Below, one piece after another: positions 34,308-51,480 of a stretch of 64,000 nt of DNA; within the stretch, counting starts at the first letter, position 1; every line of letters begins with the position of its first letter. This DNA is from Pseudoruegeria sp. HB172150 (GTDB lineage: Bacteria > Pseudomonadota > Alphaproteobacteria > Rhodobacterales > Rhodobacteraceae). The DNA is taken from contig NZ_JAATNG010000001.1 in assembly GCF_013184805.1 (NCBI RefSeq), forward strand, positions 496,001 to 560,000. Reading direction: 5' to 3'. The position numbers and the translations under genes are program-made. Below the pieces are notes generated by a model, which was not told where the DNA came from, made no database searches, and saw only the letters and a list, made by a program, of their open reading frames with translations.

Positions 34308-35387
34308 TCAGTTGTTCACGAAATATGCGTCGGAGTAGCCCAAATCCTCGAGCTTTGCCAGCAGAGACGTGCGGTCCGCCTTGGTCGGCGCCGGACCGGC
34401 AAGAACACGCCAATAAGGTTTCCCGTTGCTTTCATCCTTCACGATGGCCGGGACGATACCACTGGAGCGCAGCTTGTCGGCCGTGCTGATTGCATTGCCT
34501 TCGACGCTGTACAGGCCGATCTGGATGAATGGCTTGTCGACCTGGTTGTCCGAAACCGCGGGTGGCGGCAGCGGTGTCGTTTCCATGGCTGCCGGCACAT
34601 CTTCGGCCGGGGCCGAGGTATAGGTGACGTTGCTTATGTCTGCCGGGCTGGCAATGGCGGCTTCGAGCGCGGCGACTTCAACCTTCATCGGGTGATCGCG
34701 TGTAGCGGTTTCGATTGCATCGGCCGACATCACTGGCGTCGCCGCGACTTCAGGCTTCGGTGCATCGGCTAGCGAAAGCGGCAACGGATCGGCGGAGGCC
34801 GGTATGGGCTCTACCGCAATCGGCGCGGGAACACCGGGAAGCTCGGCCTCTGCCAAGAGTGTTTCTTCCGTTTCGGCGCTATCCTCACTTTCAGGAAGTT
34901 CCTCCGAAATTGGCAATTCCGCCGGGCCAGGTGCCGCTTCTTCGCGGCGAAGCGCGACGACTGACAGTTGCTCCGGTGCGCCAGCCAGCATACCGAGCGC
35001 CGACGCGGCATCTGACGAGACCTGGATCGAAGGCCCGGGATTGTTCCGTTCGCGTTTGAACAACGCGCCAACCACGTACTTCCCGTTGTCCTCGTTACGG
35101 ATCAGCACCCGCTCCGGTCCCGTGACGTCTGGATGCGCCACCCACACCCCACCCAGTGAGGGCCGACCATCCCAAAGCCCGCTGTCTGCCGCCTCGAATA
35201 CTTCGGGCGCCTCGACATCACGCTCGCTGATCGGTGTCTTGCCCGGTGTGGCGGCCGCAGACGTAACTTCGGCCTCAGGCTCCGGTTTCTTTTTTAGTAG
35301 TGGAAATTCTTTGTCCTCCCCGCAGCCGGCAAGCATTACCGTACCACAGAGAAGCAAGGCCATCTGCCCTGACCTCATCCTTGCCAT
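34308..35387 (-). CDS. SPOR-domain lipoprotein
   Basis: A 359-aa envelope protein. The signal peptide ends in a lipobox (LAGC, Cys22), so it should be lipid-anchored. Residues about 35-280 are low-complexity, rich in Pro, Ala and Glu, with a short conserved patch VWVAHPDVTGPERVLIRNED near 82-101. The last 75 residues form a SPOR domain (FIQIGLYSVEGNAISTADKL onward), which binds denuded septal peptidoglycan. AAGGGG lies upstream of the ATG. It sits directly before the D,D-carboxypeptidase, consistent with a cell-wall role. Confidence 0.82.
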   Translation of the reverse strand: MARMRSGQMALLLCGTVMLAGCGEDKEFPLLKKKPEPEAEVTSAAATPGKTPISERDVEAPEVFEAADSGLWDGRPSLGGVWVAHPDVTGPERVLIRNEDNGKYVVGALFKRERNNPGPSIQVSSDAASALGMLAGAPEQLSVVALRREEAAPGPAELPISEELPESEDSAETEETLLAEAELPGVPAPIAVEPIPASADPLPLSLADAPKPEVAATPVMSADAIETATRDHPMKVEVAALEAAIASPADISNVTYTSAPAEDVPAAMETTPLPPPAVSDNQVDKPFIQIGLYSVEGNAISTADKLRSSGIVPAIVKDESNGKPYWRVLAGPAPTKADRTSLLAKLEDLGYSDAYFVNN

Positions 35388-35636
35388 ACCATGCCCCTTT
35401 TCACGCGTGCTTTGTGCCGCGTTTTTTTGCTCGAACCTGCATACGGGCGCATGCAGATAGGCGGAGAATAGCCGAGCCTATGAATTATTTAAAGTGTCAA
35501 CCGGTCTGTGGGCGGTTTTTGGCTAAAGCACGTCTCTTTCGGAGTGGTCTTGCTTGGCTGCTGCGGATGCGGTTAGGCAAGCGCGGTTTGAAAGTCGGCA
35601 GGGCGGTCGAATGCGAATGCCATGCCGCTAACGCTC

Positions 35637-35684
35637 GGAAGGACGGCAGAGTGGTCGATTTCGGTGGTCTTGAAAGCCAGTGAA
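35637..35684 (+). pseudogene. 5' half of a split tRNA-Ser gene (left island junction)
   Basis: GGAAGGA (acceptor 5' strand) at 35637-35643 is followed by GCAGAGTGGTCGA, the D-arm sequence of alphaproteobacterial tRNA-Ser, and GGTCTTGAAA, an anticodon stem-loop with TGA anticodon. Homology stops just past the anticodon arm. The remainder of a serine tRNA is missing here; a matching 3' half lies at 49503-49557. Degeneration is visible: C in place of the near-universal T8. The segment TTGAAAGCCAGTGAA (35670-35684) resembles TTGAAAACCGTTGAA at the right end. Confidence 0.72.
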
Positions 35685-35871
35685 AACAGCGCCTAAGCCA
35701 CTGACATCAAAAGATACCGGGAAAAAGTGCCCCACCTTTTGTCGCAAGTACGAGGCGAAACACGTCCTTTATACAGGAAATGCTGCGTGCTTGTTTAGAT
35801 TGAAGATCTGGATTTCGTTGTCTCGACCGATTGCGTTCTGCCCTGCCCGCGCATAGACGGGGCAGGACGCG

Positions 35872-35961
35872 GGAACAGTGGCCGAGCGGTCGAAGGCACC
35901 AGTCTTGAAAACTGGCGGGCGCGGAAGCGTCCCGTGGGTTCGAATCCCACCTGTTCCGCCA
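35872..35961 (+). tRNA. tRNA-Ser (anticodon TGA)
   Basis: A complete 90-nt serine tRNA. Acceptor GGAACAG pairs with CTGTTCC, the discriminator is G and CCA is encoded. Anticodon stem CCAGT/ACTGG encloses CTTGAAA with TGA at 35906-35908. The long variable arm and the T arm (GTGGG-TTCGAAT-CCCAC) are perfect. It decodes UCN codons, chiefly UCA. It lies about 190 bp inside the left end of the island and differs in its acceptor from the split tRNA-Ser, so it is a separate gene. Confidence 0.96.
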
Positions 35962-36304
35962 CCGAGACTCGTCTCATTTCCGAATGTAGAAACCTTCCGG
36001 AATTCCCCCGACATTTCGACGGCCTGTGATTGCATGTTTGCTTCGGAGACGCACCGACATCGGCGTTTTCGCAGTTTCCCCAGCCCAAGCTCAGTTGCCC
36101 AATTTCGACGGCGGGGTTTGGGGAGAGTACGCTGATAACAGTAATTAAGGAGTGACCTAACGGTTGGCGTGATTCCCGCGGGTATCGCGGGCTGAGCGAA
36201 GGCTTTACTAGAGAAGCGAGGCCTGGGCGGGTCGCTTGGCGGCCACGGTTGTACTTCGACCGAGGTTTGGATTGCCGATCTGACTGTGACCGAGGAGATC
36301 AACC
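35962..36304. other. Non-coding stretch after tRNA-Ser
   Basis: No gene can be supported. A hairpin CCCGCG-GGTAT-CGCGGG lies at 36175-36191. The 16-bp word ATGTTTGCTTCGGAGA at 36034-36049 recurs exactly at 36707-36722 inside the IS6-family transposase remnant, so this stretch may include a second, more decayed copy of that transposase, but the flanking bases do not align. Minus-strand open frames over the tRNA are artefacts of its sequence. Confidence 0.5.
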
Positions 36305-36460
36305 ATGACCAAGGGCAGCCTATCAGCGACAGCGGCGTTGCGCGCGCTCTTGTCGGAGACCGCCGACACACACTTGCTTACCGATACGCCGGAGTTCGTC
36401 GCCGACCGTCTCAGGGCGCTGGATATCGACTCGCTCTGCGGCGCCGGGCGCAATTGCGTT
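36305..36460 (+). pseudogene. IS256-like transposase, N-terminal fragment
   Basis: The frame starting at ATG 36305 encodes about 50 residues resembling the N-terminus of IS256-family transposases: ALRALLSETADTHLL, then RLRALDIDSLCGAGR, where family members read roughly RLMELEV.. GAG. After this the similarity ends abruptly (no YRNGYR stretch), and the frame stops at 36518. It would be a truncated remnant adjacent to the IS6-family pseudogene. Resemblance is by eye, so the family call is moderate. Confidence 0.42.
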
Positions 36461-36580
36461 GACACCTGGACGTGTCTTGTCAGATCAACTTGGCTTACCG
36501 AGGCACAGTGGGCTGAATAGCGTCGCCGGATGACGAAACGCTCACCATTTCGCATCTTAAAGACATTACCTGAGATCATC

Positions 36581-37251
36581 CGTTTGGCGGTTACGAAAAA
36601 CATCCGCTTCTCGCTTTCGCTTCGGAATGTCTAGGAACTGCTGCATGAGAGGTGCGTCGATGTGAGCCATGAGGCCGCCCGTTTCTGGAGGCATCGGTTC
36701 GGTCCGATGTTTGCTTCGGAGATCCGGAAACGCCGGGTCGAAGGTATGCGAACCAGCCGCTGACGCTGGCATATAAACGAGATGTTTTTGACGACCAAAG
36801 GTGAACGGCACAATCTGTGGCGGCGGCCGATCACGAGGGCGAAATACTGGAAAGCTATGCCACCATTAACCGCTACAAGAACGTGGCATTGAAATTCCTA
36901 AATAAATCAATGAAGCATTATGGCCGGCGGGATGTCATCGTGACCGACTGACTCCGATCATATGGCGCGGCACTTAAGGAAATCGGTGCGAATGATTGCC
37001 GGGAAACTGGCCGAAGTCGAAACAGCTGCGCGGAGAATTCGCACCTGCCATTCCGACGTGAGCGGGCCACGCTGCGCTTCCGGCGGATGCGAGGTTTGCA
37101 GATGTTCGGCGACTTCGATGCCTCGGTTTTCAACCATTTCAACTCGGAGCGCAGCTTCTCCTCCAGATCCAATTTCAAGAAGGACCGCGCTGCCGCTCTC
37201 GCCGGGTGGCGCCAACTCGGCGCGGCGCAAAGGGGAGGGCTACTGTCCTAG
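36581..37251 (+). pseudogene. IS6-family transposase pseudogene
   Basis: Nearly full-length but inactive DDE transposase. Readable blocks in order are FSLSLRNV*ELLHERCVDVSH, FWRHRFGPMFASEIRKRRVEG, RWHINEMFLTTKGERHNLW, DHEGEILESYATINRYKNVA, VTD*LRSYGAALKEIG and AENSHLPFRRERATLRFRRM, ending WRQLGAA. Lesions: stop codons at 36632 (TAG), 36761 (TGA) and 36949 (TGA), and a one-base loss near 36821 shifting the frame. The first catalytic Asp (usual WHLDE) is now Asn; the second D (VTD) and the Glu (AEN) remain. Terminal repeats were not identified. Confidence 0.85.
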
Positions 37252-37451
37252 CTGAGACCCATTCCAATCCGTCTGACAGGTCCTTCCGACCGGTCGCGGC
37301 GCCCGGCATTCACCCATTTCTTCAGGTTATGAATGCCTAAGAGAACGCAATTTGACTGTGTGCGACTGCCTTCCCACACTTACGGAGTGATCTGGGGCGT
37401 CAGTCACCTGCGCAATCCAATCCACTTTTCGCGGAAAGAGAAGGGTTAAAG

Positions 37452-38279
37452 GTGAAAGTATTCATCTCGGTCGACATGGAGGGCATGGCCTGCATCACCC
37501 ATACCGACCATACTAGGATCGATGGCCATGAGTATCAGATTGCCCGCCGGTGGATGACGGCGGAGGCCAATGCGGCGGCAGAGGGCGCTTTCGAGGCTGG
37601 GGCGACCGAGGTCGTCCTTTCCGACGCTCATGGCGGAATGCATAATCTTCTGCCCGATGAACTGCACCGAGACGTACAACTGGTCAGCGGCGCGCCGCGT
37701 CCTCTGCTGCAGATGGAAGGGATCGACGCGAGCTTCGACGCAGCACTGATGATCGGGTATCACGCCCGAGCCGGCGACGCCCTTGGTATCCTGTCTCACA
37801 CCCATGTCAGCCGGCTGTCCTACGAACTGCGGCTGAACGGACAGCCCGTCGATGAGGTCGCATTCAACACCGCAGTCGCGGGCCATTTTGGCGTTCCATT
37901 GGCGCTGGTCTCGGGCGACGACAGACTGGTCGCGGGGCTTAAGGAAAGCCATCCCTGGGCCGAGTTCATCACGACGAAATGGGCCATCAGCCGGTTCTGC
38001 GCACGCAACCTCATGCCGGTGAAGGCACAAGACCTGATCCGGGAGGGCACCACGCGCGCGCTCGGGCGACTGGAAGAGATGAAGCTGGTCCAACTGGGCG
38101 ATCCGATTGAACTGGAGATCCATTTCCTCGACCCGATGTGTGCCCAGATAGCCTTAGACATCCCCGGCGCTGAACGGATCGACGGAAGGGCGATCCGCTA
38201 TGTCGGGAGGGACATGCTGGAGATTACCAGGATCTGGCGACTAAGCATCAATGCCGGAATGAGCTCGTTCCCGATATGA
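37452..38279 (+). CDS. M55-family D-aminopeptidase (DppA type)
   Basis: Zinc-dependent peptidase of the DppA family, which in Bacillus removes N-terminal D-amino acids; 275 aa. Metal ligands are visible: Asp8 and Glu10 in SVDMEG, His60 in SDAHGGMHN and His104 in GYHARAG. Catalytic-loop histidines are in LSHTHVS (116, 118). It begins with GTG after AGAGAAGGG. It heads an operon with a dipeptide-type ABC importer, amidohydrolases and a lyase, so it probably processes the imported compound. No signal peptide: cytoplasmic. Confidence 0.86.
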   Translation: MKVFISVDMEGMACITHTDHTRIDGHEYQIARRWMTAEANAAAEGAFEAGATEVVLSDAHGGMHNLLPDELHRDVQLVSGAPRPLLQMEGIDASFDAALMIGYHARAGDALGILSHTHVSRLSYELRLNGQPVDEVAFNTAVAGHFGVPLALVSGDDRLVAGLKESHPWAEFITTKWAISRFCARNLMPVKAQDLIREGTTRALGRLEEMKLVQLGDPIELEIHFLDPMCAQIALDIPGAERIDGRAIRYVGRDMLEITRIWRLSINAGMSSFPI

Positions 38280-38352
38280 CTCCGGACACCGACCCGATCC
38301 CGACAGGCCAAACTGGCCGGCAACAGAACAACGCTAACGACGCGGAAGATCC

Positions 38353-39327
38353 ATGCCATTACTAGATGTCCACGACCTTCAGGTTCACTTCAACACCGAC
38401 GCTGGCGTCGTGCGCGCAGTCAAGGGCGTGAGCTTTTCGGTCGAACGCGGCAAGACTCTGGCGGTCGTCGGTGAAAGCGGCTGCGGCAAGTCGGTTACGG
38501 CGATGGCGATCATGCGTCTGGTGAAGGCACCCGGCCGGATCGCCGGCGGCAAGATGCTGTTTTCCGTGGATGGCACAACCACGGATCTGAGCGCGTTGGA
38601 ACCGATGGGCCCCGAGATGCGCGGCATTCGGGGCAATCAGATGGCGATGATCTTTCAGGAGCCGATGACATCGCTAAACCCGGTCCATACGATCGGCCAT
38701 CAGATCATGGAGCCGATCATGCTGCACCAGGGTCTGGGCAAGCGCGCCGCGAGGACGCGCGCCATCGAAATGCTGCAGGCGGTCGGGATCCCTGCGGCTG
38801 AGTCCCGGATCGACGATTATCCGCATAATCTGTCCGGCGGAATGCGGCAGCGCGTGGTGATTGCCATGGCGCTTTCATGTAATCCGTCGCTGATAATTGC
38901 CGACGAGCCCACCACGGCGCTCGACGTGACGATCCAGGCACAGGTGTTGAAGCTGATGAATGATCTGCGGGAAAGGAGCGGGTCCTCGATCGTTTTCATC
39001 ACGCACGATCTGGGCGTGGTCGCGCAGATGGCCGACGACGTCATCGTGATGTATCTCGGCCAGATTGTCGAAAAGGCGAACGTGGAAGAACTATTCCGCG
39101 ACCCTCAGCACCCCTACACTCAGGGGCTAATGAACTCCATCCCCTCCATGGCTATCGGCAAGACCGAACGACTGGAGCCAATCAAGGGATCGGTTCCGAA
39201 CCCGCTTTCGCTATTTCAAGGCTGCGCCTTCGCTGAGCGATGCCCGCACGTAATGGACAAGTGCCGTGCCCATGAACCACCCCTGAAAGAAACGAGCACT
39301 GGCCACCTGGCCGCCTGTTGGCTGTAA
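38353..39327 (+). CDS. Dipeptide-type ABC transporter ATPase (DppD class)
   Basis: A 324-aa ATPase. Walker A GESGCGKS lies near 37-44, Q-loop [17 protein letters not shown], signature [19 protein letters not shown], Walker [13 protein letters not shown] and switch His in ITHDLGVV. The C-terminal [20 protein letters not shown] is the cysteine-containing oligopeptide-transporter C-terminal region (oligo_HPY). It overlaps or closely precedes the DppF-class gene, with which it forms the ATPase pair of the island importer. Confidence 0.92.
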
Positions 39328-39401
39328 AGCGGCGACTAGCCCGCACGAGCCGCCCGCGGCCTCCGAAGCCCGCAGCCCCAATTCGCAAGAAGGAAAAGAG
39401 A

Positions 39402-40445
39402 TTGGCTGAAAAAAACGAACCGTTGCTGGAGGTCCGGCATCTGGAAAAGCACTTTCCGGTACGCAGGGGCTTAATGCGTCGCACGCAAGGTTACGTGAAG
39501 GCGGTAGACGATGTCACCTTGTCCTTCGCCAAGGGCGAGACGGTCGGGCTGGTCGGCGAAAGTGGCTGCGGCAAGACCACAACGGGTCGGTCGATCCTGC
39601 GGCTGATCGCACCCACGAGTGGCGAAATTCTCTTTTCCAGCAAAGAACTGGCGCGGGACGGGGAAGCAACCCGCCGAGTCAATGTCGCCGATCTTCCGGA
39701 TGAAGATCTGCGCCGGCTGCGCCGGGACATGCAGATTATCTTTCAAGACCCCTATACTTCGCTGGACCCACGTATGGCCGTCGCCGACCTCGTGGGAGAG
39801 CCACTTTACGTCCACGGGATCGCACGCGGCAGCGAACTGCGCGACCGGGTCGAGAGTCTGCTGATTGCGGTAGGGCTAAGTGCGGACCATATGCAACGGT
39901 TTCCACATGAGTTTTCCGGCGGTCAGCGGCAGCGGATCGGCATAGCCCGTGCGCTTGCGCTACGTCCGCAATTCATCGTGGCCGACGAGCCGATCTCGGC
40001 ACTTGACGTGTCCATACAGGCTCAGGTGGTGACGCTGCTGCAGGACCTTCAGGAAGAATTCGACCTTACGTATTTGGTGGTGACACACGACCTGACCGTC
40101 GTCCGCTACATGAGCGACCGCGTGGCGGTGATGTATCTGGGCCAGATCGTCGAGATCGCGAAATCCGAAGAACTCTTCGAGCATCCCCGCCATCCTTATA
40201 CCGAGGCGCTGCTATCGGCCATTCCCGTGCCTGATCCGAAGACACGGGTTAATCAGATTCTGCTCGAAGGCGACGTTCCCAGCCCGCTCAATCCGCCATC
40301 GGGTTGTCGTTTCCATACGCGCTGCCGGTACGCCAAGGACATCTGTCGCAAGGAAAATCCGGAATTCCGCGCCATGGGCGAGGAACACTACTCGGCGTGC
40401 CACTTCGCCGAAACCCTGCCGCTCAAGCCGTTCGGCAAGAGCTAG
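39402..40445 (+). CDS. Dipeptide-type ABC transporter ATPase (DppF class)
   Basis: A 347-aa ATPase partner. Walker [11 protein letters not shown]-loop [16 protein letters not shown], signature [19 protein letters not shown], Walker [13 protein letters not shown], switch His VVTHDLTVV, and C-terminal [22 protein letters not shown] place the start at TTG 39402, preceded by AAGGA at good spacing; the frame also opens at a TTG at 39318 overlapping the DppD-class stop, but that adds a basic 28-residue leader with no family counterpart. A 288-bp non-coding gap follows. Confidence 0.88.
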
Positions 40446-40733
40446 ATCACCGGGCCGGACCTCGGCCTTTTGCTTCGTTTTCCGGCAATGGACAACGCTT
40501 TCAAAGCTGCGGCTTGCTGAAATCAACGGCAATAACCCAGAGGAATGAATACGCTAAATGTTCATATTGGACAGGCTGTTAAGCGAGTGAAACTCTGCAA
40601 TCGGTACTTCGGGTGTCGAAGCGACATGGCTTCAATGTTGTACGGCACATCAACAGGGAACCCACGGTTCGGAACAGAATCCTAGACCCACTGCTACCAG
40701 TTCCGGTCCCGGGTAGATGAAAGGACGGATCAC

Positions 40734-42281
40734 ATGAAAATGGGACGAATTAGATTAACTTTGGCGATAAGCGCAGTGCTTCTAGGCGCGAGCTTTTCAA
40801 GCGCTCAGGCCCAGGATCCGAAAATGGGCGGGGAACTGCGTGTGGGCATCGCCCGGGATGTCGTGAACATGGCCCCTTGGCTGTCCCAAGGCGCGAGCGT
40901 CTACATTATTCAGCAGAACGTCTACGACAACCTGATCAACTATGACGACGATGGCAACTTGGCGCCGGAATTGGCTGTTTCCTGGGAGGTCGTCGACCCG
41001 CAGACATACGTGATCCACCTGCGCGAAGGCGTCGTGTTCCACGACGGCGACACCTTCGATGCCGAGGACGCAAAAGTTTCGCTCGATATGATGCGCGACC
41101 CGACTGGAACCTCGGCGCTGGCGCCGCAGTTGGCCGACGTCGAAGAGGTGAACGTGCTCGATCCCTACACTGTTGAACTGAAACTGAGTCAACCAAATGT
41201 CGTCGTCTTCTCGGCGCTCGCCTCGTCCACGGCGCATATCCTCAGTAAGGAATGGCTTGAAGCCGGTCACGACCTGAATACCGAAATGAACGGCACCGGG
41301 CCCTTCATATTTTCGGAATTCGAGCCGGGCGTGCAGACTGTGCTGGTGAAGAACGAGCACTACTGGAAAGAGGGCATGCCCTATCTCGACAAGGTGATCG
41401 CTGTCCCCTACCGCGACGACAGCGCAAGAATCAACGCACTGCTCTCGAGTGAAGTGAACTTCATCGAGTATGTTCCTTACATCGAGTTCGACCGCCTGAA
41501 GCAGGACGATGCCTATTCGATGTATGCCGGCGTCGGTCCGTACAACTTTCTGCACCTTAACGTCAACGAACCGCCCTTCGACGACGCGCGGGTGCGTCAG
41601 GCTTTGAATTACCTGATCGACCGTGACCTACTGATCCAGCTAACGGCCGGCGGCGCGGGTGTTCCGATCGAAGTGGGGCTGCTGCAACCCGACGACCCCT
41701 ACTACAATGAAGATCTCGCGCGCTGGAAATTCGACCCGGACAAGGCGCTGGAACTGCTTCAGGAAGCCGGTTACGAAAACTTCTCTGATATATCCTTCGT
41801 GCTAACCTGCTCGACCGTGACGGTGCACAAGGATCCGGCAGAGGCGATCCAAGCTACTTTGCAGGGCTTCGGCATGAACGTCGAGATCAAGTATATCGAC
41901 GTGCCTACCTTGCTGGATTACCGCCAAAACGGCGGCTATGTCGCGATGATGGATGGTCAGTCCGCTGCCTACCAGGATCCGGACGCCTATTCCGCCTATT
42001 TCGAAACCGGCGCGCCCGGCTATTCCACTGCCACCGACTTTTCCGACGAAACGCTCGACGAACTTCTGGCCAAAGGTCGGGTAGAAAGCGACTTCGAAAC
42101 GCGTAAGCAAATCTACCATGATTTCGAAGAGCGCCTACTCGAACTGACGCCGTGGTATTTCGGTTACTTTCGTCCGCAGGGCGAAGCGATGGAGGCCAAG
42201 GTCAAAGGCTATCGGCGCTGGCCTGGCTTGCTCGGCGCCCATTCGACGAGCCGCTTCGAATACGTCTGGATCGAAGAATAA
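40734..42281 (+). CDS. Dipeptide-type ABC transporter substrate-binding protein (family 5)
   Basis: A 515-aa periplasmic SBP_bac_5 protein. Signal peptide about 1-24 (LGASFSSAQA-QD). Family features: GGELRVGIARDVVNMAPWLS after cleavage, LAPELAVSWEVVDPQTYVIHL near 78-98, and NGTGPFIFSEFEPG near 184-197. It should bind the substrate of the island-encoded importer. AAAGGA precedes the ATG. A 163-bp gap separates it from the permeases. Confidence 0.88.
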   Translation: MKMGRIRLTLAISAVLLGASFSSAQAQDPKMGGELRVGIARDVVNMAPWLSQGASVYIIQQNVYDNLINYDDDGNLAPELAVSWEVVDPQTYVIHLREGVVFHDGDTFDAEDAKVSLDMMRDPTGTSALAPQLADVEEVNVLDPYTVELKLSQPNVVVFSALASSTAHILSKEWLEAGHDLNTEMNGTGPFIFSEFEPGVQTVLVKNEHYWKEGMPYLDKVIAVPYRDDSARINALLSSEVNFIEYVPYIEFDRLKQDDAYSMYAGVGPYNFLHLNVNEPPFDDARVRQALNYLIDRDLLIQLTAGGAGVPIEVGLLQPDDPYYNEDLARWKFDPDKALELLQEAGYENFSDISFVLTCSTVTVHKDPAEAIQATLQGFGMNVEIKYIDVPTLLDYRQNGGYVAMMDGQSAAYQDPDAYSAYFETGAPGYSTATDFSDETLDELLAKGRVESDFETRKQIYHDFEERLLELTPWYFGYFRPQGEAMEAKVKGYRRWPGLLGAHSTSRFEYVWIEE

Positions 42282-42444
42282 TACAAGAAAGGTGCGAGAT
42301 GGATGACGCGGCCGGTCGGCCGATCCGCCTCGCACCGCAGCCAAGTTCCAGGGGAAGGTCAATGCCCGGACAAGCCAACCAACGCAGGAGCTGGCGAGAA
42401 ACGCCTGTCTCAGTCTTCTGCCGAGCGCCGAGATCCCGGTCGAC

Positions 42445-43398
42445 ATGATCAACTACATAATCAGGCGTCTTGTTCAGACTGCCATCACCACCTTCATCGT
42501 CGTTTCGCTAATCTTCTTTCTGGTGCACCTGCTGCCGGGAGACCCGGCGCGCACGATCCTGGGCGGAATGACCGCGCAGCCGACGGCCGAACAAATCGCC
42601 GCCGTCCGGGAACAGCTTGGCCTGGACCGGCCGCTGCACATCCAGTACCTGACCTATCTGAGAGACCTCGCTCGCGCAGATTTGGGAGAGTCTCTGGTCA
42701 ACAATCGGCCCGTCCTCGACGATATCTTACTTCGGGTTCCACGAACGTTGCAGATCGCCGTTCCGGCGCTGATTCTTGCGACGATTGTCGGAATTCCCCT
42801 CGGTGTAGTCGCCGCCCGGCGCCGCCGACGCATGGGCGACTTGGTCATATCGACCATTTCGGTCGCCGCCTTCTCGCTTCCGTCCTTCGTGAGCGGCCTG
42901 CTGTTGGTCGTAGTCTTCTCGATCAACCTACAATGGTTGCCGGCGAGTGGCTGGGTTTCGCCCGCCGATGACTTTGCGGGATTTCTGTCCCGCATCATCT
43001 TGCCGACCATCGCACTGGCCGTTGCCCCGGCAGGCCTCATCATGAGGATGATGCGGTCAAGCATGCTAGAACAACTGGGCCAGGATTATGCGACCACGGC
43101 TCGCGCAAAGGGGCTGACTGACCAGAAGGTCGTCTACGGTCACGTCTTCCGAAACTCGATGATGCCGGTAGTCACCTCGCTGGGGCTGCAGGCCGGATTT
43201 CTCTTCACCGGAAGCGTAATCGTCGAAAACGTATTCAACTGGCCGGGCATCGGGAACATGCTTTTGGATTCAGTCCTGAACCGGGACTACCCCGTCATTC
43301 AGGGTATGGTCCTCGTAGTCTCGCTCGCCTTCGTCCTAATCAACCTCATCACCGATCTGACTTACGGCCTGATCGATCCGAGGATTCGCTATGATTAA
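42445..43398 (+). CDS. Dipeptide-type ABC transporter permease (DppB class)
   Basis: A 317-aa permease with six predicted helices. It begins MINYIIRRLVQTAITTFIVV, has LLPGDPARTILGGMTAQPT, the EAA-type loop DYATTARAKGLTDQKVVYGH and the C-terminal LITDLTYGLIDPRIRYD. It overlaps the next permease gene by 8 bp. Together with the DppC-class protein it forms the channel of the island importer. Confidence 0.9.
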   Translation: MINYIIRRLVQTAITTFIVVSLIFFLVHLLPGDPARTILGGMTAQPTAEQIAAVREQLGLDRPLHIQYLTYLRDLARADLGESLVNNRPVLDDILLRVPRTLQIAVPALILATIVGIPLGVVAARRRRRMGDLVISTISVAAFSLPSFVSGLLLVVVFSINLQWLPASGWVSPADDFAGFLSRIILPTIALAVAPAGLIMRMMRSSMLEQLGQDYATTARAKGLTDQKVVYGHVFRNSMMPVVTSLGLQAGFLFTGSVIVENVFNWPGIGNMLLDSVLNRDYPVIQGMVLVVSLAFVLINLITDLTYGLIDPRIRYD

Positions 43399-44242
43399 AC
43401 GGTTCCGCGCGACTTTCCGCCTCTTATTGAAATCGCCTCAATTCGTAGTGAGCCTGATCTTACTGTCGGTCATTGGCTTTCTCACGGTCTTTGGCCCGCT
43501 GATCACCCCCTGGGAGCCATGGAGCATCGATGCCACAAAGCGGTTTGCAGGCCCATCGCTGCAGCACTGGCTGGGCAATGACGAGTTCGGGCGCGACATC
43601 TTCAGCAACATTGTTTACGGCGCAAGAATCTCACTGATCGTCAGCATTCTCAGCATGACCTTCGCCAGCGTCGTGGGGGTGATCATCGGTATGGTCGCCG
43701 GCTACTTCCGTGGCGCCTGGGAAATGCTGGCAATGCGTGGAACCGACATCATGCTGTGTTTCCCGCCGATGCTGATGGCGATCTTCCTGGTGGCATTGAC
43801 CGGGCCAAGCATCGTGAACCTAGTCTTCGTGATCGGGATCCTCTTCATTCCGCGTTTTGCCCGGATTGCCTACAGCAGCACGCTATCGGTCGCCGAAATC
43901 CAATATGTAGAGGGTGCGCGCGCGATCGGGGCGCGGAATTGGTTTATCCTCCTGCGGCATATCCTACCGAACATTCTTGCGCCGCTCTTCGTGCAATTCT
44001 CGCTGGGCCTAGGTTCCGCAATCCTGATCGAGTCGGGTCTTAGCTTTCTGGGCCTCGGACCTCCTCCGCCGGCGGCTTCGTGGGGTCGGATGATTTCTAC
44101 CGCGCAGCGCTATCTGTCGGTCAGTCCGTTCGGCGTGCTATGGCCCTCGATCTTCATCTCGGCGACGGTGATCGCAGTCAACCTCCTAGGCGACGCGCTT
44201 AGGGATACGCTCGACCCGCGCATCCGCAACCGGTCGGAGTGA
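43391..44242 (+). CDS. Dipeptide-type ABC transporter permease (DppC class)
   Basis: A 283-aa permease. Diagnostic HWLGNDEFGRDIFSNIVYGA lies near 58-77, the EAA-type loop is QYVEGARAIGARNWFILLRH followed by ILPN, and the tail is LGDALRDTLDPRIRNRSE. It overlaps the DppB-class gene. The next gene, an RraA-family enzyme, starts 122 bp later, so import and catabolism genes appear to be one unit. Confidence 0.9.
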   Translation: MIKRFRATFRLLLKSPQFVVSLILLSVIGFLTVFGPLITPWEPWSIDATKRFAGPSLQHWLGNDEFGRDIFSNIVYGARISLIVSILSMTFASVVGVIIGMVAGYFRGAWEMLAMRGTDIMLCFPPMLMAIFLVALTGPSIVNLVFVIGILFIPRFARIAYSSTLSVAEIQYVEGARAIGARNWFILLRHILPNILAPLFVQFSLGLGSAILIESGLSFLGLGPPPPAASWGRMISTAQRYLSVSPFGVLWPSIFISATVIAVNLLGDALRDTLDPRIRNRSE

Positions 44243-44364
44243 GATGATGGCCTTCGGCTCCATTACAACCCGGGAAACCATTACGGCGCGACTGGCCTTT
44301 TCGGCCGCAAGGCGCACCGCCCGCAAACGAAGACACATGACACAATAGGACAGAGGTTACGAAA

Positions 44365-45075
44365 ATGTCGTTCACTTGGAAAGACGCCCGGCTAGGCTAC
44401 ACAGTACGCAAACGCCCACCGACTCCGAACCTGGATCTGGAGCGGTTTAAGGACCTGTTCACCTCAAACTGTTCGGACATCATGGGCAAGCTCATGACCA
44501 TGGATCACCGGATCAAACCGGTCTTTCCAGTGGAAAAGCCGGTGATTGGCCATGCGATCACGGTCATGGTGCACCCCGGCGCGAATACCATGGTCAAGAA
44601 GGCGATGGAAATGGCAGAGCCCGGCGACATTATCGTCGTCAACGACTGGTTCGACCGCAACAACGCGCTGCTCGGCGGGATCATGGCCGAGATGGCCGCG
44701 GCGAAGGGCATCGCGGCCTTCGTGACCGACGGTCTGGTCCGCGACAAGGAAGAGCTTGAAGAAGCCGGTGTGCCGGTCTTTGCTCTTGGCCTGACTCCAA
44801 TCGCGCCAGCTGCCTCACGGCCGATGGGGCAGATAAATACTCCGATCAGCTGCGGCGGTATCATCGTCCACCCGGGCGACATCATCATGGCCGATAATAC
44901 CGGCATCGTGGCGATCCCCCCTGCGGACGCCGAACTAGTTCTGGAACGCGGCGAGGCGCTAATCAAAAAGGAATGGGACTGGTTACACCCGGAAGAGCCG
45001 GGAAAGTTTGCCATCTACGACGCGACCAATGCCGAGCTTGAGCGCACCGGTTGCGAGATTGAACCGGGCGCCTGA
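44365..45075 (+). CDS. RraA-family lyase (HMG/CHA aldolase-like)
   Basis: A 236-aa protein of the RraA / 4-hydroxy-4-methyl-2-oxoglutarate aldolase superfamily. The substrate-metal region is GGIMAEMAAAKGIAAFVTDG followed by LVRDKEELEEAGVPVFALG, which holds the conserved glycine-rich turn and the Arg-Asp pair. Enzymes of this family cleave 4-hydroxy-2-oxo acids or decarboxylate oxaloacetate; RraA itself inhibits RNase E. In this operon a catabolic lyase releasing pyruvate or CO2 is more likely. Exact substrate unknown. Confidence 0.78.
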   Translation: MSFTWKDARLGYTVRKRPPTPNLDLERFKDLFTSNCSDIMGKLMTMDHRIKPVFPVEKPVIGHAITVMVHPGANTMVKKAMEMAEPGDIIVVNDWFDRNNALLGGIMAEMAAAKGIAAFVTDGLVRDKEELEEAGVPVFALGLTPIAPAASRPMGQINTPISCGGIIVHPGDIIMADNTGIVAIPPADAELVLERGEALIKKEWDWLHPEEPGKFAIYDATNAELERTGCEIEPGA

Positions 45076-45219
45076 GCGGCAGGCCGGACCGACCAAACAC
45101 TAATTACAGGGCGCCCGTTGCCGTTCGACGGATCGGGGCCCATCCACAGCAGACCCGACATCCCTACCCGGCGCCGATCGACGCCGACCGGAGAAGGCGT
45201 GTCGTCAAAGGAGCTCTCC

Positions 45220-46026
45220 ATGGATCAACCTGCAAAACACGAACTGGCCCGCATGACCTATCGCGAGGCCGAAATGGCCTTCAAAAAGAACCCGGTGATC
45301 CTGATCCCGATGGGCTCGACCGAGCAGCACGGACCACAAACGCCGACCGGCGATTTCCGCCTGGCCAATGCGCTCTCACTCGAAATGGCGAGGCGCACCG
45401 GGGCGATCAGCGCCCCTGTCATTCCCTTCTCCGAGGGCGCTGCCGCACGGGATTTTCCTGGTGCCGTCGCATTGCGACGTGAGACGCTCTATAATCTGGT
45501 CTGGGATGTCTGCCGGGGTTTCACGCGCTTCGGGCTCGATCATCTGATGCTGGTCTCGGGAGATCACGGCAACGTGCCGATCCTGGAAAACCTGATCCGG
45601 GACTTTAAGGATTCCGAGGGTATCCGTATCTCGATGGTCGAGCAGTACCGCTGGTTCACCCCGGAATGGCTGGAAGAGATCTACGAGCGTCCCAACCCGC
45701 CGATCGGCCACGGCGGCGACCCGATCATGTCGCTTAATCTGCACCTTTTTCCCGATGACGTGCGCAGTGATCTGATCGAGACCGAGATCAAGAATGATTT
45801 CCAGGGCCTCCGTGCCACCAGTTTCACCCAGATGACCTTTGGCAAGCACATGTTCTATTTGCCAGTGGATTACAGCGAATTATCCCCGAACGGCGTCCGA
45901 GGTGACGCCTCGATCGCCAGCAAGGAGGTGGGCGAAAAGATCTTTAATGGCCTGGTCGATAAGGGCGTAGAGATCGTCGAGCGTTTTAAGCAGGTTGATA
46001 CTCGCTGCGAGGCGAAGCCGTGGTGA
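45220..46026 (+). CDS. Creatininase-family amidohydrolase
   Basis: A 268-aa metal-dependent amidohydrolase of the creatininase family, which opens cyclic amides or cleaves C-N bonds. Metal-binding residues are in GSTEQHGP (Glu35, His37) and TGDFRLA (Asp45); SGDHGN and GHGGDPIMS follow, the latter with Asp where many members have Glu. AAGGAG sits just before the ATG at 45220; the frame is open further upstream without a good site. It overlaps the acetamidase gene by 7 bp, implying paired action. Confidence 0.82.
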   Translation: MDQPAKHELARMTYREAEMAFKKNPVILIPMGSTEQHGPQTPTGDFRLANALSLEMARRTGAISAPVIPFSEGAAARDFPGAVALRRETLYNLVWDVCRGFTRFGLDHLMLVSGDHGNVPILENLIRDFKDSEGIRISMVEQYRWFTPEWLEEIYERPNPPIGHGGDPIMSLNLHLFPDDVRSDLIETEIKNDFQGLRATSFTQMTFGKHMFYLPVDYSELSPNGVRGDASIASKEVGEKIFNGLVDKGVEIVERFKQVDTRCEAKPW

Positions 46027-47024
46027 CCGAGCGCCCGGCCAGCACCACCGTGACTGGGCCGAAAAAACTCGGCCGGGACACCGCCGGCCACGTAGAATTC
46101 GGAGCGCACCTGGAACCGGCGCTCCGGGTTCGACAGGGGGAGATCTTTGCAGTCGAGACGCTCGACAATTGGTTCGACAGCCTGAATGAACCTGGAGCCA
46201 GACCGGATCTGACCAAACCTCCAATCGGCGCACTGCAGGTGTTTCGGGCAAACCCCGTGAACGGCCCGATCCACGTCGAGGGTGCCGAGCCTGGCGATGC
46301 GCTGCGCGTGCATATCCACGATATTGCAATCCGCGACTGGGGTTGGACCGGCATGCTAAAGGCACGCGGCATGACCGGCACGCTCGCGTACTTTGCAGAG
46401 ATCGATGAGGACTTCGCCACCATCATCCGCCATGTGCCCGGCCCTTCCGGTACTTTCGCCGATGGCGAAGCGGTGATGGATGTCGGCCGCGAAGTTCGCT
46501 GGCCCCTCGCGCCCTTTATTGGCGTTATTGCGACCGCACCCGAGCGCGGCGTCGAGAATACCGTCATCTCGCAAGGCGCCTGGGGCGGCAATCTGGACGT
46601 ACGCGACGTCAGCGCCGGGAATGTGGTAGAACTGAATTCGGCCCATGAGGGGGGGCTGCTGTTTGTCGGTGATGTCCATGCTTCGCAAGGGGACTCTGAA
46701 TTCACGGGTATCGCCAACGAAACCGCTGCAGAACTGCTGCTTTCGGTAGAAGTCATGAAGGGCCGTCAGATCCCCGGTGCGCTCAGGATTGAGAAACCTA
46801 ATAGCCTGGTGCAGGTCGAGAGCGCCCGCAATGCCGGCGGCCGTGACCGGGCATTAACCTGGGTCTTCATCAACATGATCCGCTGGCTGGTTGAGGACTA
46901 CGGCATGTCAAAACGCGAGGCAGTGCTGCACATGACCGCGAATTCGCTGGTGCGAACACATATCTACCAGAACACGTCGGGTGCGTTCTGCTGCGGTGTC
47001 GAATTTCCGAAATCCTGTGTCTAA
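46020..47024 (+). CDS. Acetamidase/formamidase-family amidase
   Basis: A 334-aa FmdA/AmdA-type amidase releasing ammonia from a small amide. Family stretches: NPVNGPIHVEGAEPGDALRV (about 77-96), HIHDIAIRDWGWTG, IGVIATAPERG, GNLDVRDVSAGNVVELN and LFVGDVHASQGDSEFTG. It starts with GTG inside the end of the creatininase-family gene, so the two are translationally coupled. Substrate likely a small amide formed after ring opening or peptide trimming of the imported compound, which is inference. Confidence 0.85.
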   Translation: MVTERPASTTVTGPKKLGRDTAGHVEFGAHLEPALRVRQGEIFAVETLDNWFDSLNEPGARPDLTKPPIGALQVFRANPVNGPIHVEGAEPGDALRVHIHDIAIRDWGWTGMLKARGMTGTLAYFAEIDEDFATIIRHVPGPSGTFADGEAVMDVGREVRWPLAPFIGVIATAPERGVENTVISQGAWGGNLDVRDVSAGNVVELNSAHEGGLLFVGDVHASQGDSEFTGIANETAAELLLSVEVMKGRQIPGALRIEKPNSLVQVESARNAGGRDRALTWVFINMIRWLVEDYGMSKREAVLHMTANSLVRTHIYQNTSGAFCCGVEFPKSCV

Positions 47025-47064
47025 CGCTCGCGCCACGCAATGACTGGATTCCGGAGATCACACC

Positions 47065-47799
47065 ATGGACAATTCGAAAACTCTACAGTTTCCAGATCTG
47101 CGCGCTAAGGTCGCGCTCGTCACCGGCGCCAGTCGCGGCATCGGTCGCGACACCGCCATATTGCTGGGCACAGCCGGAGCTACGGTATATGCCGGAACCC
47201 GCGGTGTGCAGTCCGCACCTGATGGCACACGCTGGATTGCACTTGATGTGACTTCGGACGAGTCCGTCAGCAACGCAGTCACCCAGATTCTGGCAGAGAC
47301 CGGCCGGCTCGACATCCTGGTCAATAATGCCGGCGTGATGGATTGTATTGCACCTATCGGTGAAAGCATGATCGGCACAGAGGTCAACCGTCTGCTAGAC
47401 GTCAACGTGACGGGCGTCTTGCGCTGCATGAATGCGGCCATCGAAGCGGTTCGGGACGCGGGTGGCACGATTCTAAATGTAGCCTCAGGCGCCGCTAATA
47501 GGCCTTTCGATGGCTGGGCCGCCTATTGTGCCTCGAAAGCTGCCGTCGCGATGCTTTCCGAGGTCGCCGCGCTGGAAAACGCCGGCACCGGGCTGAAAGT
47601 CTTCTCGGTCAATGTGCCGGCCACAGATACCGACATGCAGGAAACCATCCGCCAATCCCGCATCAACCAGATCAGCCAGATCGCCAAGGCCGATCTAGTT
47701 CCGGTGCGGACGGTCACGCGGTTCATGGCAGCGCACTGCACCGAAAAGGCTCGAGAACTTGATGCCGTGACGGCCGACCCTCGCGATGAGGCAATCTAG
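47065..47799 (+). CDS. Short-chain dehydrogenase/reductase
   Basis: A 244-aa SDR. Cofactor motif TGASRGIG is at 20-27, NNAG at 87-90, catalytic Ser141, Tyr154 and Lys158. It is the last enzyme of the island operon and probably oxidises or reduces a hydroxy/oxo intermediate. The C-terminus is divergent from the usual closing motif (YxxGxxxxVDGG), so substrate prediction is not possible. It follows the amidase by 40 bp. Confidence 0.85.
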   Translation: MDNSKTLQFPDLRAKVALVTGASRGIGRDTAILLGTAGATVYAGTRGVQSAPDGTRWIALDVTSDESVSNAVTQILAETGRLDILVNNAGVMDCIAPIGESMIGTEVNRLLDVNVTGVLRCMNAAIEAVRDAGGTILNVASGAANRPFDGWAAYCASKAAVAMLSEVAALENAGTGLKVFSVNVPATDTDMQETIRQSRINQISQIAKADLVPVRTVTRFMAAHCTEKARELDAVTADPRDEAI

Positions 47800-47922
47800 G
47801 CTTACCTATCGGCCGATTGACGGGCTCGCAAGGAAACGTCGGTCCGCGATATTTGCCGCAACGGAGCGGTCGGTATATCCTGAGGTTATGGGAGGGTTCA
47901 GATCATTCCGGGAAGGGGGCAG

Positions 47923-48813
47923 ATGAACTTTCGCCAGATGGAGATCTTCTATGCGATCATAACTACAGGGTCGGTCACCGCTGCAGCACGATCGCTTAAC
48001 CTTAGTCAGCCCGCCGCGACGAAAATTCTGCGCCATGCCGAGGATCGTCTGGGTTTCAAGCTTTTTCACCGCATCAAGGGGCGGCTGCTGCCTACCGACG
48101 ATGCAATGGTCATTCTACACGATGTTGAGCGGGTGTTTCAGGATGTCGTCACGGTCCGGCAAACCGTCAGCGATGTGCGCCTAGGTCGCACGGGCGCCTT
48201 GAGCGTTGTTGGAGTTCCGCCAGTCTGCCAGGTGGTCATTCCGAAGGCGATCGCGCGTTTCAAGCAAGACCGTCCCGAGGTCCAGATCAGTTTTGCGCAG
48301 CGCGAAGGCAATGCGGCAATGCAATATGTCGCAACGCAACGGGCAGATATAGGCCTATCCTTTCTCGTGCCTATCCATTCCAGCCTGCAATCCCAGACGA
48401 TCTTGGAACGCGACATGGCCTGTATCGTACCACTAGGCCATCCGTTCGCTTCACGAAGTCATGTGACTGCGTTGGATATGGAAAACCAACCACTGATCAC
48501 GTATCCCAACGACAGCAAGCTGAACCCATTCATCGAGGCGGCGTTCACCTCGAGTAGAGTAGAGATCCGGCATAGCATCCAAGCCACGTCGATACTTACG
48601 ACCTGGGGCCTCGTTCAGCAGGGCGCTGGCGTGGGAATTGTAGAAAACATCTCTCAACTTGAGGATTTGTACTCGAACATCGCTGTCGTACCCTTCAAGC
48701 CGTCGATACCCATCCGGCTCGATGTTATTACGCCGAACATGAAACCACCTTCGCGGCTTGCGTCCCAATTCATTGATACCGTGCGTGACGTGCTTATGAA
48801 GTCTGTTCCGTGA
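47923..48813 (+). CDS. LysR-family transcriptional regulator
   Basis: A 296-aa LTTR. The winged HTH lies at about 1-60 (MNFRQMEIFYAIITTGSVTA, then AARSLNLSQPAATKILRHAE), followed by a periplasmic-binding-like effector domain (about 90-290). GGGAAGGGGG precedes the ATG. It is transcribed in the same direction as the operon and at its end, rather than divergently as is usual for LTTRs, but it is the only regulator in the island and the obvious candidate to control it. Confidence 0.88.
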   Translation: MNFRQMEIFYAIITTGSVTAAARSLNLSQPAATKILRHAEDRLGFKLFHRIKGRLLPTDDAMVILHDVERVFQDVVTVRQTVSDVRLGRTGALSVVGVPPVCQVVIPKAIARFKQDRPEVQISFAQREGNAAMQYVATQRADIGLSFLVPIHSSLQSQTILERDMACIVPLGHPFASRSHVTALDMENQPLITYPNDSKLNPFIEAAFTSSRVEIRHSIQATSILTTWGLVQQGAGVGIVENISQLEDLYSNIAVVPFKPSIPIRLDVITPNMKPPSRLASQFIDTVRDVLMKSVP

Positions 48814-49500
48814 ATGGGTTTCGGACTGGAAACACTGGGGGGTGTCAGAAAGATTCTGACCGGCCTCGCGACGGTTTCGATTAACGGTTGCGCGACGGGT
48901 GGTTCTGACAGGGGCGGGCTTGGAGCGTGCCCTCCTAGGGTACAGTACAGCCGCGAGTTCCAGGCAAGCCCGACCAATTTTCATTCTCAGACGGGAAGCT
49001 GAAATGTTTAGCGCTGGCTTCAACCCGAAACGGCGACTTGCCGATTGCCAGTGCCATCCACTCGCACCTTAAGCGGTTCGCATCCTGACGATAAACATGC
49101 AAGCGACCCGCCCAAACGGAATGGATGATAGTGTACCGGGAAATGGTGCAACTTTGGTTTTCGGCCTGTTTTCGGCAGCAGTTACAGGGCGGCGTTGGTC
49201 GCCGGGTCCGCGGGTCAATGTCGCATTTGGCAGTGACTTTTTCAGGGTTGTGCAGCGGCGCGTGATCGTCCACGGAGCGTTTTGTTTTAGCATCAGCGCG
49301 CTACGAGGCGTGGGAACGGCGGCTCTTTAGGGGAACAGCAGTGGGAGAGGGAGAAACCTCCCATTTGGCCGGCATATGTTGTCCCAGAATCTGACCCGCG
49401 GCGAGGGATGTTTCCTGTTTCTTTCATCGCAACGAAATCTATATTTGGCGCGAAGATAATTTCATTGGGCTAATAGCGCTAAATATGGTATCTTTGCTGT
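48814..49500. other. Gene-free right arm of the island
   Basis: No coding region can be supported; short open frames on both strands match no family I know. The stretch becomes A/T-rich toward 49440-49500. A small hairpin GGGAG-AAAC-CTCCC occurs near 49350. It may be the decayed remains of an integration module, but no integrase motif (R..HxxR..Y) was found on either strand. Confidence 0.45.
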
Positions 49501-49502
49501 TG

Positions 49503-49557
49503 TTGAAAACCGTTGAACCGAGAGGTTCCGTGTGTTCGTATCCCACACCTTCCGCCA
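49503..49557 (+). pseudogene. 3' half of a split tRNA-Ser gene (right island junction)
   Basis: Starts in the anticodon loop (TTGAAAACCGT), then has a perfect variable-arm stem GAACC-GAGA-GGTTC, a T arm GTGTG-TTCGTAT-CCCAC with one broken pair and an altered loop base, acceptor 3' strand ACCTTCC, discriminator G and CCA (49555-49557). ACCTTCC pairs with the GGAAGG of the 5' half at 35637, but not with the intact tRNA-Ser acceptor. Joining 35637-35670 to 49504-49557 yields an 88-nt serine tRNA. Confidence 0.75.
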
Positions 49558-49833: not shown

Positions 49834-51480
49834 CTAGCGGCGGCCGACCGGTGAGAGGGTTTCGAAAGGAATGCCCGTCGCCGCCTCGTATTCCTCTTCG
49901 TCCCAGAAACCGATCAGGATGCCGGATTCCGCGGCCTTGGTCTGCCGCGCAAGAACGGCGGGCGTCGCGGTGATGCGGGTATGGTGGCGCGTGGCCCAGT
50001 CGAGCAGCGCCTGCTCCATACGGGTGCGTACCGCGACATGCTCCGCCGCCTCCGACGCACCCAGGTCGACCAGCTCCTGCGGATCGGTGTCCAGGTCGAA
50101 CAGAACCGGACGGAACCCTTCGCAGCGGATATATTTCCAGCGCCCGTCGAAGATCATCTTCGTATGCGCGTTCTCCTGCGGCTGCTGCAGCGACCGGGCC
50201 ATGTCGGACCAGTGGTAATCGTGTTCGCTGATCACGTAGCGCCGCGAGAAGCCGTCCTCGCCGTTAAGCAACGGGGTCAGGTCGCGGCCCTCGATGACAT
50301 GGGGCTTCGGCTTGCACCCAAGGGCGTTCATGAAGGTCGGCGCGAGGTCGATCATCTCGACCAGCGCATCGGTGGCGGTACCGCGTGTCCTGTCGGCCGC
50401 CGGCCGCGGATCGGCGATGATCAGCGGCACCTTGACCGCCATCTCGTGATAGAAATCCTTGTCGCCCATCCAGTGGTCGCCCATGTAGTCGCCGTGGTCG
50501 GAGGTAACGGCGACGATGGTGTTCTCGCGAAAGCCCTTTTCCTCCATCCAAGCGAAAAGCCGGCCGAGATTGTCGTCGAGCTGCTTGATCAGGCCCATGT
50601 AGGCAGGGATGACCTGTTCGCGCACGTGATCGCGGGAAAAGCTGCGGCAGACGCGGGCCTCGTGATAGGCGGCGACCAGCGGATGGTCGGTGCCGCGCTC
50701 CGCCTCGGAACGAACTGGCGGAATGATGTGCTCGGGTCCGTACATGTCGTGATAGGGCGCCGGGACGATATAGGGCCAATGCGGCTTGATGTAGGACAGG
50801 TGGCACATCCACGGGCGCCCGTCCGCCATCGCCTGCTCCATGAAATCCATCGCCCGGTTGGTCATGTAGGCGGTTTCGGAATGCTCCTCGGGCACGTTGG
50901 CTGCGAGGCGGGAGTTCTTCAGCAGCCACGCGGAAAGCAGTTCGCCGTCAGCGTCGAGGCCGGAATTGGCGAAGTCCTCCCACGGATTCTCCGACGCGAA
51001 GCCGTGCGCGACGAGGTAATCGTCATAGGCCGACCATTGCTGGCGCGGGCTGTCCGGGTGCAGGCCATCATCGCGCTCGAAGGGCTCAAAGCCGCATTCG
51101 GACACACGCACGCCGATCTCGCTGGACGGGTCTATGCCCAGCCATGCCAGCCCTTCCGCATCGGCGGTCATGTGTGTCTTGCCCACCAGCACCGCCCGCG
51201 CGCCGGCCTCGCGCAGGTGATCGCCCAGAGTCGGCTCGCCCACACGCAGCGGCATGCCGTTCCACGTCGACCCGTGGCTGCGCACGTAGCGGCCGGTATA
51301 GGCCGACATCCGCGACGGCCCGCAGACGGGCGACTGGACGTAGGCATTGGTGAATCGCACCCCACGCAGGGCAAGAGCATCCATATGCGGCGTGTGCAGA
51401 TGCGGGTGGCCGTAGCAGCTGAGATAATCGTACCGAAGCTGGTCGGCCATGATCCACAGAACGTTGGGACGATCGGTCAT
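49834..51480 (-). CDS. Sulfatase-family hydrolase (formylglycine type)
   Basis: A 548-aa alkaline-phosphatase-superfamily enzyme. The modification motif is C-G-P-S-R with Cys53 expected to become formylglycine. Metal residues are in WIMADQ (Asp13) and TSDHGDYMGDHW near 320; LPxYH-type sequence and VKVPLIIADPR follow. No signal peptide is seen, so it acts in the cytoplasm on an imported sulfate ester, or possibly a phosphonate/phosphodiester as related phosphonate monoester hydrolases do. Its start overlaps the MarR gene stop by 4 bp; divergent TRAP genes may import the substrate. Confidence 0.85.
   Translation of the reverse strand: MTDRPNVLWIMADQLRYDYLSCYGHPHLHTPHMDALALRGVRFTNAYVQSPVCGPSRMSAYTGRYVRSHGSTWNGMPLRVGEPTLGDHLREAGARAVLVGKTHMTADAEGLAWLGIDPSSEIGVRVSECGFEPFERDDGLHPDSPRQQWSAYDDYLVAHGFASENPWEDFANSGLDADGELLSAWLLKNSRLAANVPEEHSETAYMTNRAMDFMEQAMADGRPWMCHLSYIKPHWPYIVPAPYHDMYGPEHIIPPVRSEAERGTDHPLVAAYHEARVCRSFSRDHVREQVIPAYMGLIKQLDDNLGRLFAWMEEKGFRENTIVAVTSDHGDYMGDHWMGDKDFYHEMAVKVPLIIADPRPAADRTRGTATDALVEMIDLAPTFMNALGCKPKPHVIEGRDLTPLLNGEDGFSRRYVISEHDYHWSDMARSLQQPQENAHTKMIFDGRWKYIRCEGFRPVLFDLDTDPQELVDLGASEAAEHVAVRTRMEQALLDWATRHHTRITATPAVLARQTKAAESGILIGFWDEEEYEAATGIPFETLSPVGRR

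Follow-up and report, generated by a model that had tools for sequence, protein, structure and literature searches.

A split tRNA-Ser(UGA) gene bounding a genomic island of Pseudoruegeria sp. HB172150 and the whole tRNA gene inside it

In a 64,000-nucleotide stretch of the Pseudoruegeria sp. HB172150 genome (the window; contig NZ_JAATNG010000001.1, positions 496,001 to 560,000) a tRNA-Ser(UGA) gene, J, is cut in its anticodon loop, and its two halves bound a 13.8-kb island. The interval between them contains an intact tRNA-Ser(UGA) gene of a different allele, I, no other gene of this type having been found in the genome. In other genomes this architecture occurs with both halves still intact. 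Thus, we consider it quite likely that a mobile element integrated into J and supplied I as a whole replacement, whereupon J decayed and the integrase was lost. We infer that I was brought by the island, in which order the events occurred and what kind of integrase was responsible.

In this sequence of events the element would have crossed over, in the manner of the tyrosine recombinases, at the 7-bp core CTTGAAA of the chromosomal J. Its attachment site would have contained no 3' half from which J could be rebuilt, and a whole tRNA-Ser(UGA), I, would have lain just inside its left end. The 5' half of J would have remained beside the neighboring SPOR-domain gene, with the 3' half displaced by 13.8 kb. 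I would then have assumed the decoding of UCA codons, J would have been free to decay, and the element would have lost its integrase, leaving the oligopeptide/amidase cargo.

The two halves of J and the intact gene between them

The 5' half of J (35637-35675, plus strand) terminates in the crossover core CTTGAAA (35669-35675), and the 3' half (49503-49557, also plus strand) opens in the core as TTGAAA and closes with CCA at 49557. An earlier note, made from the sequence of this DNA, had described a tRNA-Ser gene split into halves 13.8 kb apart that join to 88 nt, and both statements are confirmed: the joined halves match the intact tRNA-Ser(UGA) genes of genomes G150, G365, G021 and G008 end to end, with 92, 91, 90 and 90% identity over 88/88 positions. 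The locations given for the fragments were right, although the 5' half is five bases longer, reaching 35675, and the 3' half begins at 49503; similarly, the TTGAAA named as the anticodon loop is present, but merely as part of the UGA loop CTTGAAA. The acceptor strands of J, GGAAGGA and ACCTTCC, pair at 6/7 positions, whereas the 5' strand pairs with the 3' strand of I at 4/7 (hand counts), so that the strands, as proposed, fit each other better than the intact gene. TTGAAA is the only sequence common to both junctions, and a rebuilt J is found at neither. The halves come from a single tRNA-Ser(UGA) gene that was cut within its anticodon loop, at CTTGAAA; this also upholds the idea of a single ancestral gene cut by integration, an integrating element being the most likely agent.

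Gene I (35872-35961, plus strand) is recognized by ARAGORN and by Rfam (60.7 bits) and is the sole tRNA that these tools see in the window. The earlier note placed an intact tRNA-Ser nearby; it is indeed present, but actually lies within the interval bounded by the J halves, beginning 196 nt inside the left junction. The genome gives 39 tRNA hits, nine of them long (at least 81 nt). The eight long hits besides I read as Leu (five) or as Ser with the anticodons GCU, GGA and CGA, which leaves I as the sole Ser(UGA) among the long-variable-arm hits of an assembly that is 99.64% complete. Decoding of UCA codons requires a UGA anticodon, and a sole tRNA-Ser(UGA) gene is essential. As an allele I differs from J: its best match among 394 genomes of the family (G138) reaches 92%, and in four congeners the Ser(UGA) genes are 79-80% identical to it, as compared to 89-98% for Ser(GCU). 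Most likely, I arrived with the island as a replacement, a link based on its position, its allele, its being the sole copy and the parallels in other genomes, rather than on an empty site. The observation that J was not rebuilt and that both halves have decayed is borne out, but it overlooked the replacement gene: as I would have taken over as the working Ser(UGA), no rebuilding of J was needed.

The half-plus-whole arrangement in other genomes

A strict pattern scan of named genomes, in which the arrangement itself is selected by the pattern, gave 49 stretches in which a second tRNA-Ser(UGA) closely follows a 5' half whose last bases are CTTGAAA. Judged by record titles the hosts are mostly alpha- and betaproteobacteria, plus single metagenome-assembled genomes (MAGs) labelled Bryobacterales and Gemmata. 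According to ARAGORN the second gene is whole in 48/49 stretches and follows the half after 8-37 nt; the remaining stretch is a double stack (L160 was left out of the 48). The spacers of these 48 compact loci fall mainly into two classes, of 9 nt and of 17-20 nt. Four loci share the 19-nt spacer ACTTGTGCAGGAGTATTGT before near-identical whole tRNAs and have four different 5' halves; there, therefore, spacer and whole tRNA move as one unit. Within the 30 stretches fetched from relatives, tandem 5' halves were seen only in G016 and G020, where a core-ending 5' half directly precedes a different whole tRNA-Ser(UGA); the template of one tandem-half scan was one base too long, so that known halves were seen only at four mismatches. 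The same architecture at Ser GCU, CGA and GGA was found in 0/300 family genomes with a pattern that fixes GAGTGGT and is thus narrower than the UGA pattern. Restriction-modification genes often lie close to the whole tRNA: the 98 open reading frames (ORFs) downstream include at least eight N6/N4 DNA methylases, and the families listed (25 of 54) comprise ScaI- and BamHI-like endonucleases, a TIR protein, a PRTase-CE protein and one integrase.

Second cores and 3' halves were then located by pattern in 48 of the 49 genomes (L175 excluded), with a 3' half pattern that begins with CTTGAAAA and would miss elements having another core. Twenty stretches were fetched, from which L203 and L204 (stretches lacking a 3' half) and L205 (the double stack) were dropped, leaving 17 complete elements, including L202 (0.55 kb, acceptor 5/7). 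Their cores are 0.55-15.8 kb apart, and their hosts, which include Propionivibrio soli (L200) and Dechloromonas agitata (L195), are mostly titled Pseudomonadota. When the outer halves are rejoined, ARAGORN calls tRNA-Ser(tga) in 17/17, and the acceptor stems pair 7/7 in 15/17 as opposed to 26/272 cross pairs. Integrases of one blastp cluster, within which identities drop to 22%, occur in 13/17 elements and are the last gene before the distal half in eleven; Pfam Phage_integrase matched in all three that were tested (L186, L188 and L192). A DUF3987 protein (of L192) has relatives in four elements, and an AAA_25 protein and an HTH_17 protein (both of L199) have relatives in six each. Besides its whole tRNA-Ser(UGA), a 2.3-kb element from Zoogloeaceae (L197, L172) contains only a DNA methylase and a NotI-like endonuclease, and no integrase; it may have moved in trans or be a deletion remnant. 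Two of the element integrases have no relative in IMG/VR, and searches in phages yielded only remote ones (88 records, all below 60% identity). The complete elements resemble small satellites or mobilisable islands. We found no description of such compact elements in the open-licence literature, judged mostly by titles and abstracts.

At the right ends of L191, L192, L196, L200 and others, CCTACGA precedes the core, and at several left ends TTGTAGG or a near form follows it; the two may be an inverted pair of integrase sites. On other contigs, the Methylophilaceae genome of L194 (G426) contains two additional 3' matches that resemble tRNA-Ser(UGA).

The double stack is found in a Sterolibacterium MAG (L205, L218 and L219), where half A is followed after 19 nt by half B and after another 107 nt by the whole gene C. 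Downstream of C are an integrase and genes with sliding-clamp, SNF2-type and DNA polymerase A domains (the last match being just below the cut-off). A 3' half lies ~41.7 kb from the core of C; ARAGORN accepts it with B as well as with A, and it is assigned to B because of the acceptor GGAAGCT/AGCTTCC. The stack is a fresh, undecayed two-layer case, and its second junction, CTTGAAA-GCCGGTGAA, resembles that of the window, CTTGAAA-GCCAGTGAA, at 8/9 positions by eye. With its longer spacer and similar junction this prophage-like element is a better parallel of the window than the compact group.

The window itself appears to hold an older layer. Upstream of J, a stretch at 35588-35615 (plus strand; aligned 35592-35615, predicted start 35588) resembles the 5' part of a congener-type tRNA-Ser(UGA): it matches the allele of G001 in 22/24 columns with a score of 19, which is reached by 0/500 shuffles and 0/1006 other stretches of the window (maximum 16). 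The allele type is that of G001, G002 and G004, whose gene starts lie 204-205 nt from the SPOR start codon, as compared to 201 nt for the predicted start of the remnant; in G003, which has another allele, the distance is 242 nt. The final 12 bases of this older half, beyond the aligned part, are unrecognisable, but the layer is likely to be real. The 9 nt between its predicted end and J (35628-35636, plus strand) equal one of the two main compact spacer lengths and share CTAACG with the spacer ACTAACGAC of L178, which is suggestive of an element spacer; with it, the J layer would fit the compact type. Since the remnant matches the congener allele at nearly the same position, the site was probably overwritten twice, J having arrived earlier in the same way at the expense of the allele kept by three congeners.

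Taken together, we lean towards regarding the tRNA-Ser(UGA) locus as a self-renewing docking site, at which each element overwrites the gene and brings the next target, the layers in the window being the native allele, J and I. An essential tRNA would then be handed down by mobile elements, layer upon layer. Such a scheme would cover a widespread group of small integrase/helicase elements, many with restriction-modification genes, as well as larger prophages. If it is correct, mobile elements can serially replace an essential translation gene while the site remains available to later arrivals, tRNA-dependent integration extends from phages to small elements, often with restriction-modification genes, and fossil halves give the order of insertions. 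It would also offer a reason for the strong divergence of tRNA-Ser(UGA) alleles between congeners, and island finders that expect a rebuilt tRNA and one fragment may miss or misplace such elements.

The island, its neighborhood and competing histories

The interval differs in composition from its surroundings, with a GC content of 58.3%; in 45 other (overlapping) stretches of the same length taken from the window it is 63.0-65.1%. Its left end, from the core to gene I (35676-35871, plus strand, 196 nt), has no match outside its own genome among the compared loci. Just inside the island and behind I are two insertion sequence (IS) remnants. The first (36211-36357, strand unassigned) was detected by tblastn in minus-strand reading against 10 plasmid records, 6 of which are annotated as IS256 family transposase under the match; its interpretation as an integrase remnant was rejected in view of these matches. 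The second (36478-37237, plus strand) is of the IS6 family, with DNA matches of 66-77% in other genomes and a DDE_Tnp_IS240 match of 2.9e-5 for one piece, below the curated cut-off.

The cargo cluster (37452-48813, plus strand; assigned by Pfam) encodes an M55 D-aminopeptidase, an oligopeptide-type ABC transporter (two ATPases, SBP5, two permeases), RraA-like, creatininase-like and FmdA/AmdA (acetamidase/formamidase-like) proteins, an SDR protein and a LysR regulator, and looks like a set for the uptake and breakdown of a single amide or peptide-like compound. No phage domains were detected in the scanned cargo genes, and a promoter scan around the genes gave no promoter-like site. When proteins from the element stretches were compared with the island, only transporter ATPases and a LysR-like gene matched, all from L204, a stretch with no located right end.

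To the left, the SPOR-domain gene (34308-35387, minus strand; Pfam SPOR 1e-10) is matched in 34/61 genomes searched, and a tRNA-Ser(UGA) is present at 26/30 loci fetched around it (own genome included). In L117 (G013) this tRNA is 2.4 kb from the SPOR gene instead of the usual ~0.2 kb, with extra DNA between. On the right follows a sulfatase gene (49834-51480, minus strand; Pfam Sulfatase 2.3e-44), for which the 30 stretches from relatives (2.5-19.9 kb) gave no match at E 1e-8 and which was rejected as a conserved right neighbor. The expectation that relatives would have their tRNA-Ser between these two genes holds on the left but not on the right; the SPOR side is the old neighborhood of tRNA-Ser(UGA). 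The island genes and the sulfatase do not recur as a block in the 30 stretches, in which there are single, mostly weak matches. In four congeners, G011 and G022, the ORFs that follow the tRNA have at most 38% identity to the right flank of the window, a comparison made without an amidase gene of G022 that is cut by the end of its stretch. This gene, which is 68% identical to the right-flank amidase, equally oriented and ~17.5 kb away from the tRNA, is the strongest single match and a hint of the old order on the right side.

Several observations speak against the replacement of J by an element carrying I. ARAGORN calls no tRNA in the joined J; we attribute the rejection to the decayed T arm, which is mismatched. 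Tool scans of the whole window (tRNA and Rfam) likewise see I and not the halves, which we count against the split gene. PF00589 has no match in the island. Apart from the tRNA and the stretch with the IS remnants, nothing in 388 family genomes matched the left end of the island (E 1e-25). An empty site was found in no close relative, and congeners do not share the right flank. The compact form is rare in the family (7/394 genomes; backward control 0), and the 196-nt spacer before I is outside both the compact range of 8-37 nt and the 55-nt limit. Moreover, the 9-nt spacer ACAGTTGTA occurs at 8 loci with 7 different halves and whole tRNAs of at least three acceptor types; therefore, spacer and tRNA are not always one unit. 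Finally, I could have arrived separately.

This last point leads to a history that we regard as unlikely, in which redundancy came first: I was acquired independently, which made J dispensable, and an unrelated insertion (an IS or an ordinary island) later struck the anticodon loop of J by chance. The two IS remnants behind I, the missing integrase and the dissimilarity of the 196 nt to the compact spacers would agree with it. However, I lies inside the interval and near its left junction, on the same side as in the (pattern-selected) compact elements, the Sterolibacterium prophage bears its whole tRNA on that side as well, 107 nt from the core, and the cut falls in the same core.

We give still less credence to an ordinary island whose attachment site (attP) once had a 3' half, the rebuilt J having been lost later when a deletion and an IS insertion affected the left junction. 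Islands in tRNA genes do generally rebuild their target (PMC4383910). In the window, however, the 5' half stops cleanly at the core, a search for a 3' half between it and I found none, and a different whole gene comes next instead. It is hardly credible that the halves, in spite of their correct order and strand, make up a functional split tRNA whose parts are joined in trans, as happens in some archaea, given the mismatched T arm of the joined sequence, its rejection by ARAGORN and the presence of an intact gene with the same anticodon; no such system is known to us in bacteria.

Comparison with known systems

Integration into J with supply of I as replacement has its closest described counterpart in tRNA-dependent lysogeny, reported for phage Fionnbharth, cluster L phages and others (Guerrero-Bustamante and Hatfull 2024, PMC10865867), in which the Lactobacillus prophage Lj965 is cited as an earlier hint. 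As in that system, the element in the window integrated inside a host tRNA gene, with a short common core and the gene rebuilt at neither junction, the disrupted tRNA has no second Ser(UGA) copy in the genome, and a replacement tRNA lies within the interval, where it would have been carried by the element. In contrast, the lysogenic systems are complete temperate phages of Actinobacteria, experimentally shown and using tRNA-Lys and others, whereas the window holds a decayed 13.8-kb metabolic island, lacking an integrase, at tRNA-Ser(UGA). The compact elements differ as well, being mostly from Pseudomonadota and having the whole tRNA 8-37 nt behind the host 5' half.

Islander-type islands (PMC4383910) share with our case a tyrosine integrase and a crossover in the anticodon loop; as described there, they rebuild the tRNA with a fragment from attP, while our element supplies a whole gene and leaves the two halves of the host gene behind. 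The tycheposons of Prochlorococcus and Methylophilaceae (PMC10872708) are similar in their tyrosine recombinase, border tRNA gene and cargo islands. In Sinorhizobium meliloti, tRNA-Leu(UAG) is replaced by prophages and islands that bring additional tRNA genes, and the likeness is that the host tRNA is inactivated by integration and replaced by the element's foreign-type tRNA (PMC11476347). The authors of that paper saw no evidence of element-borne tRNA genes becoming new integration sites, whereas the Sterolibacterium stack shows an element-borne tRNA as a new site, and the window probably contains a fossil of such a case. As it has no integrase today, we offer the island of Pseudoruegeria sp. 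HB172150 as a fossil variant of tRNA-dependent integration rather than as a lysogen.

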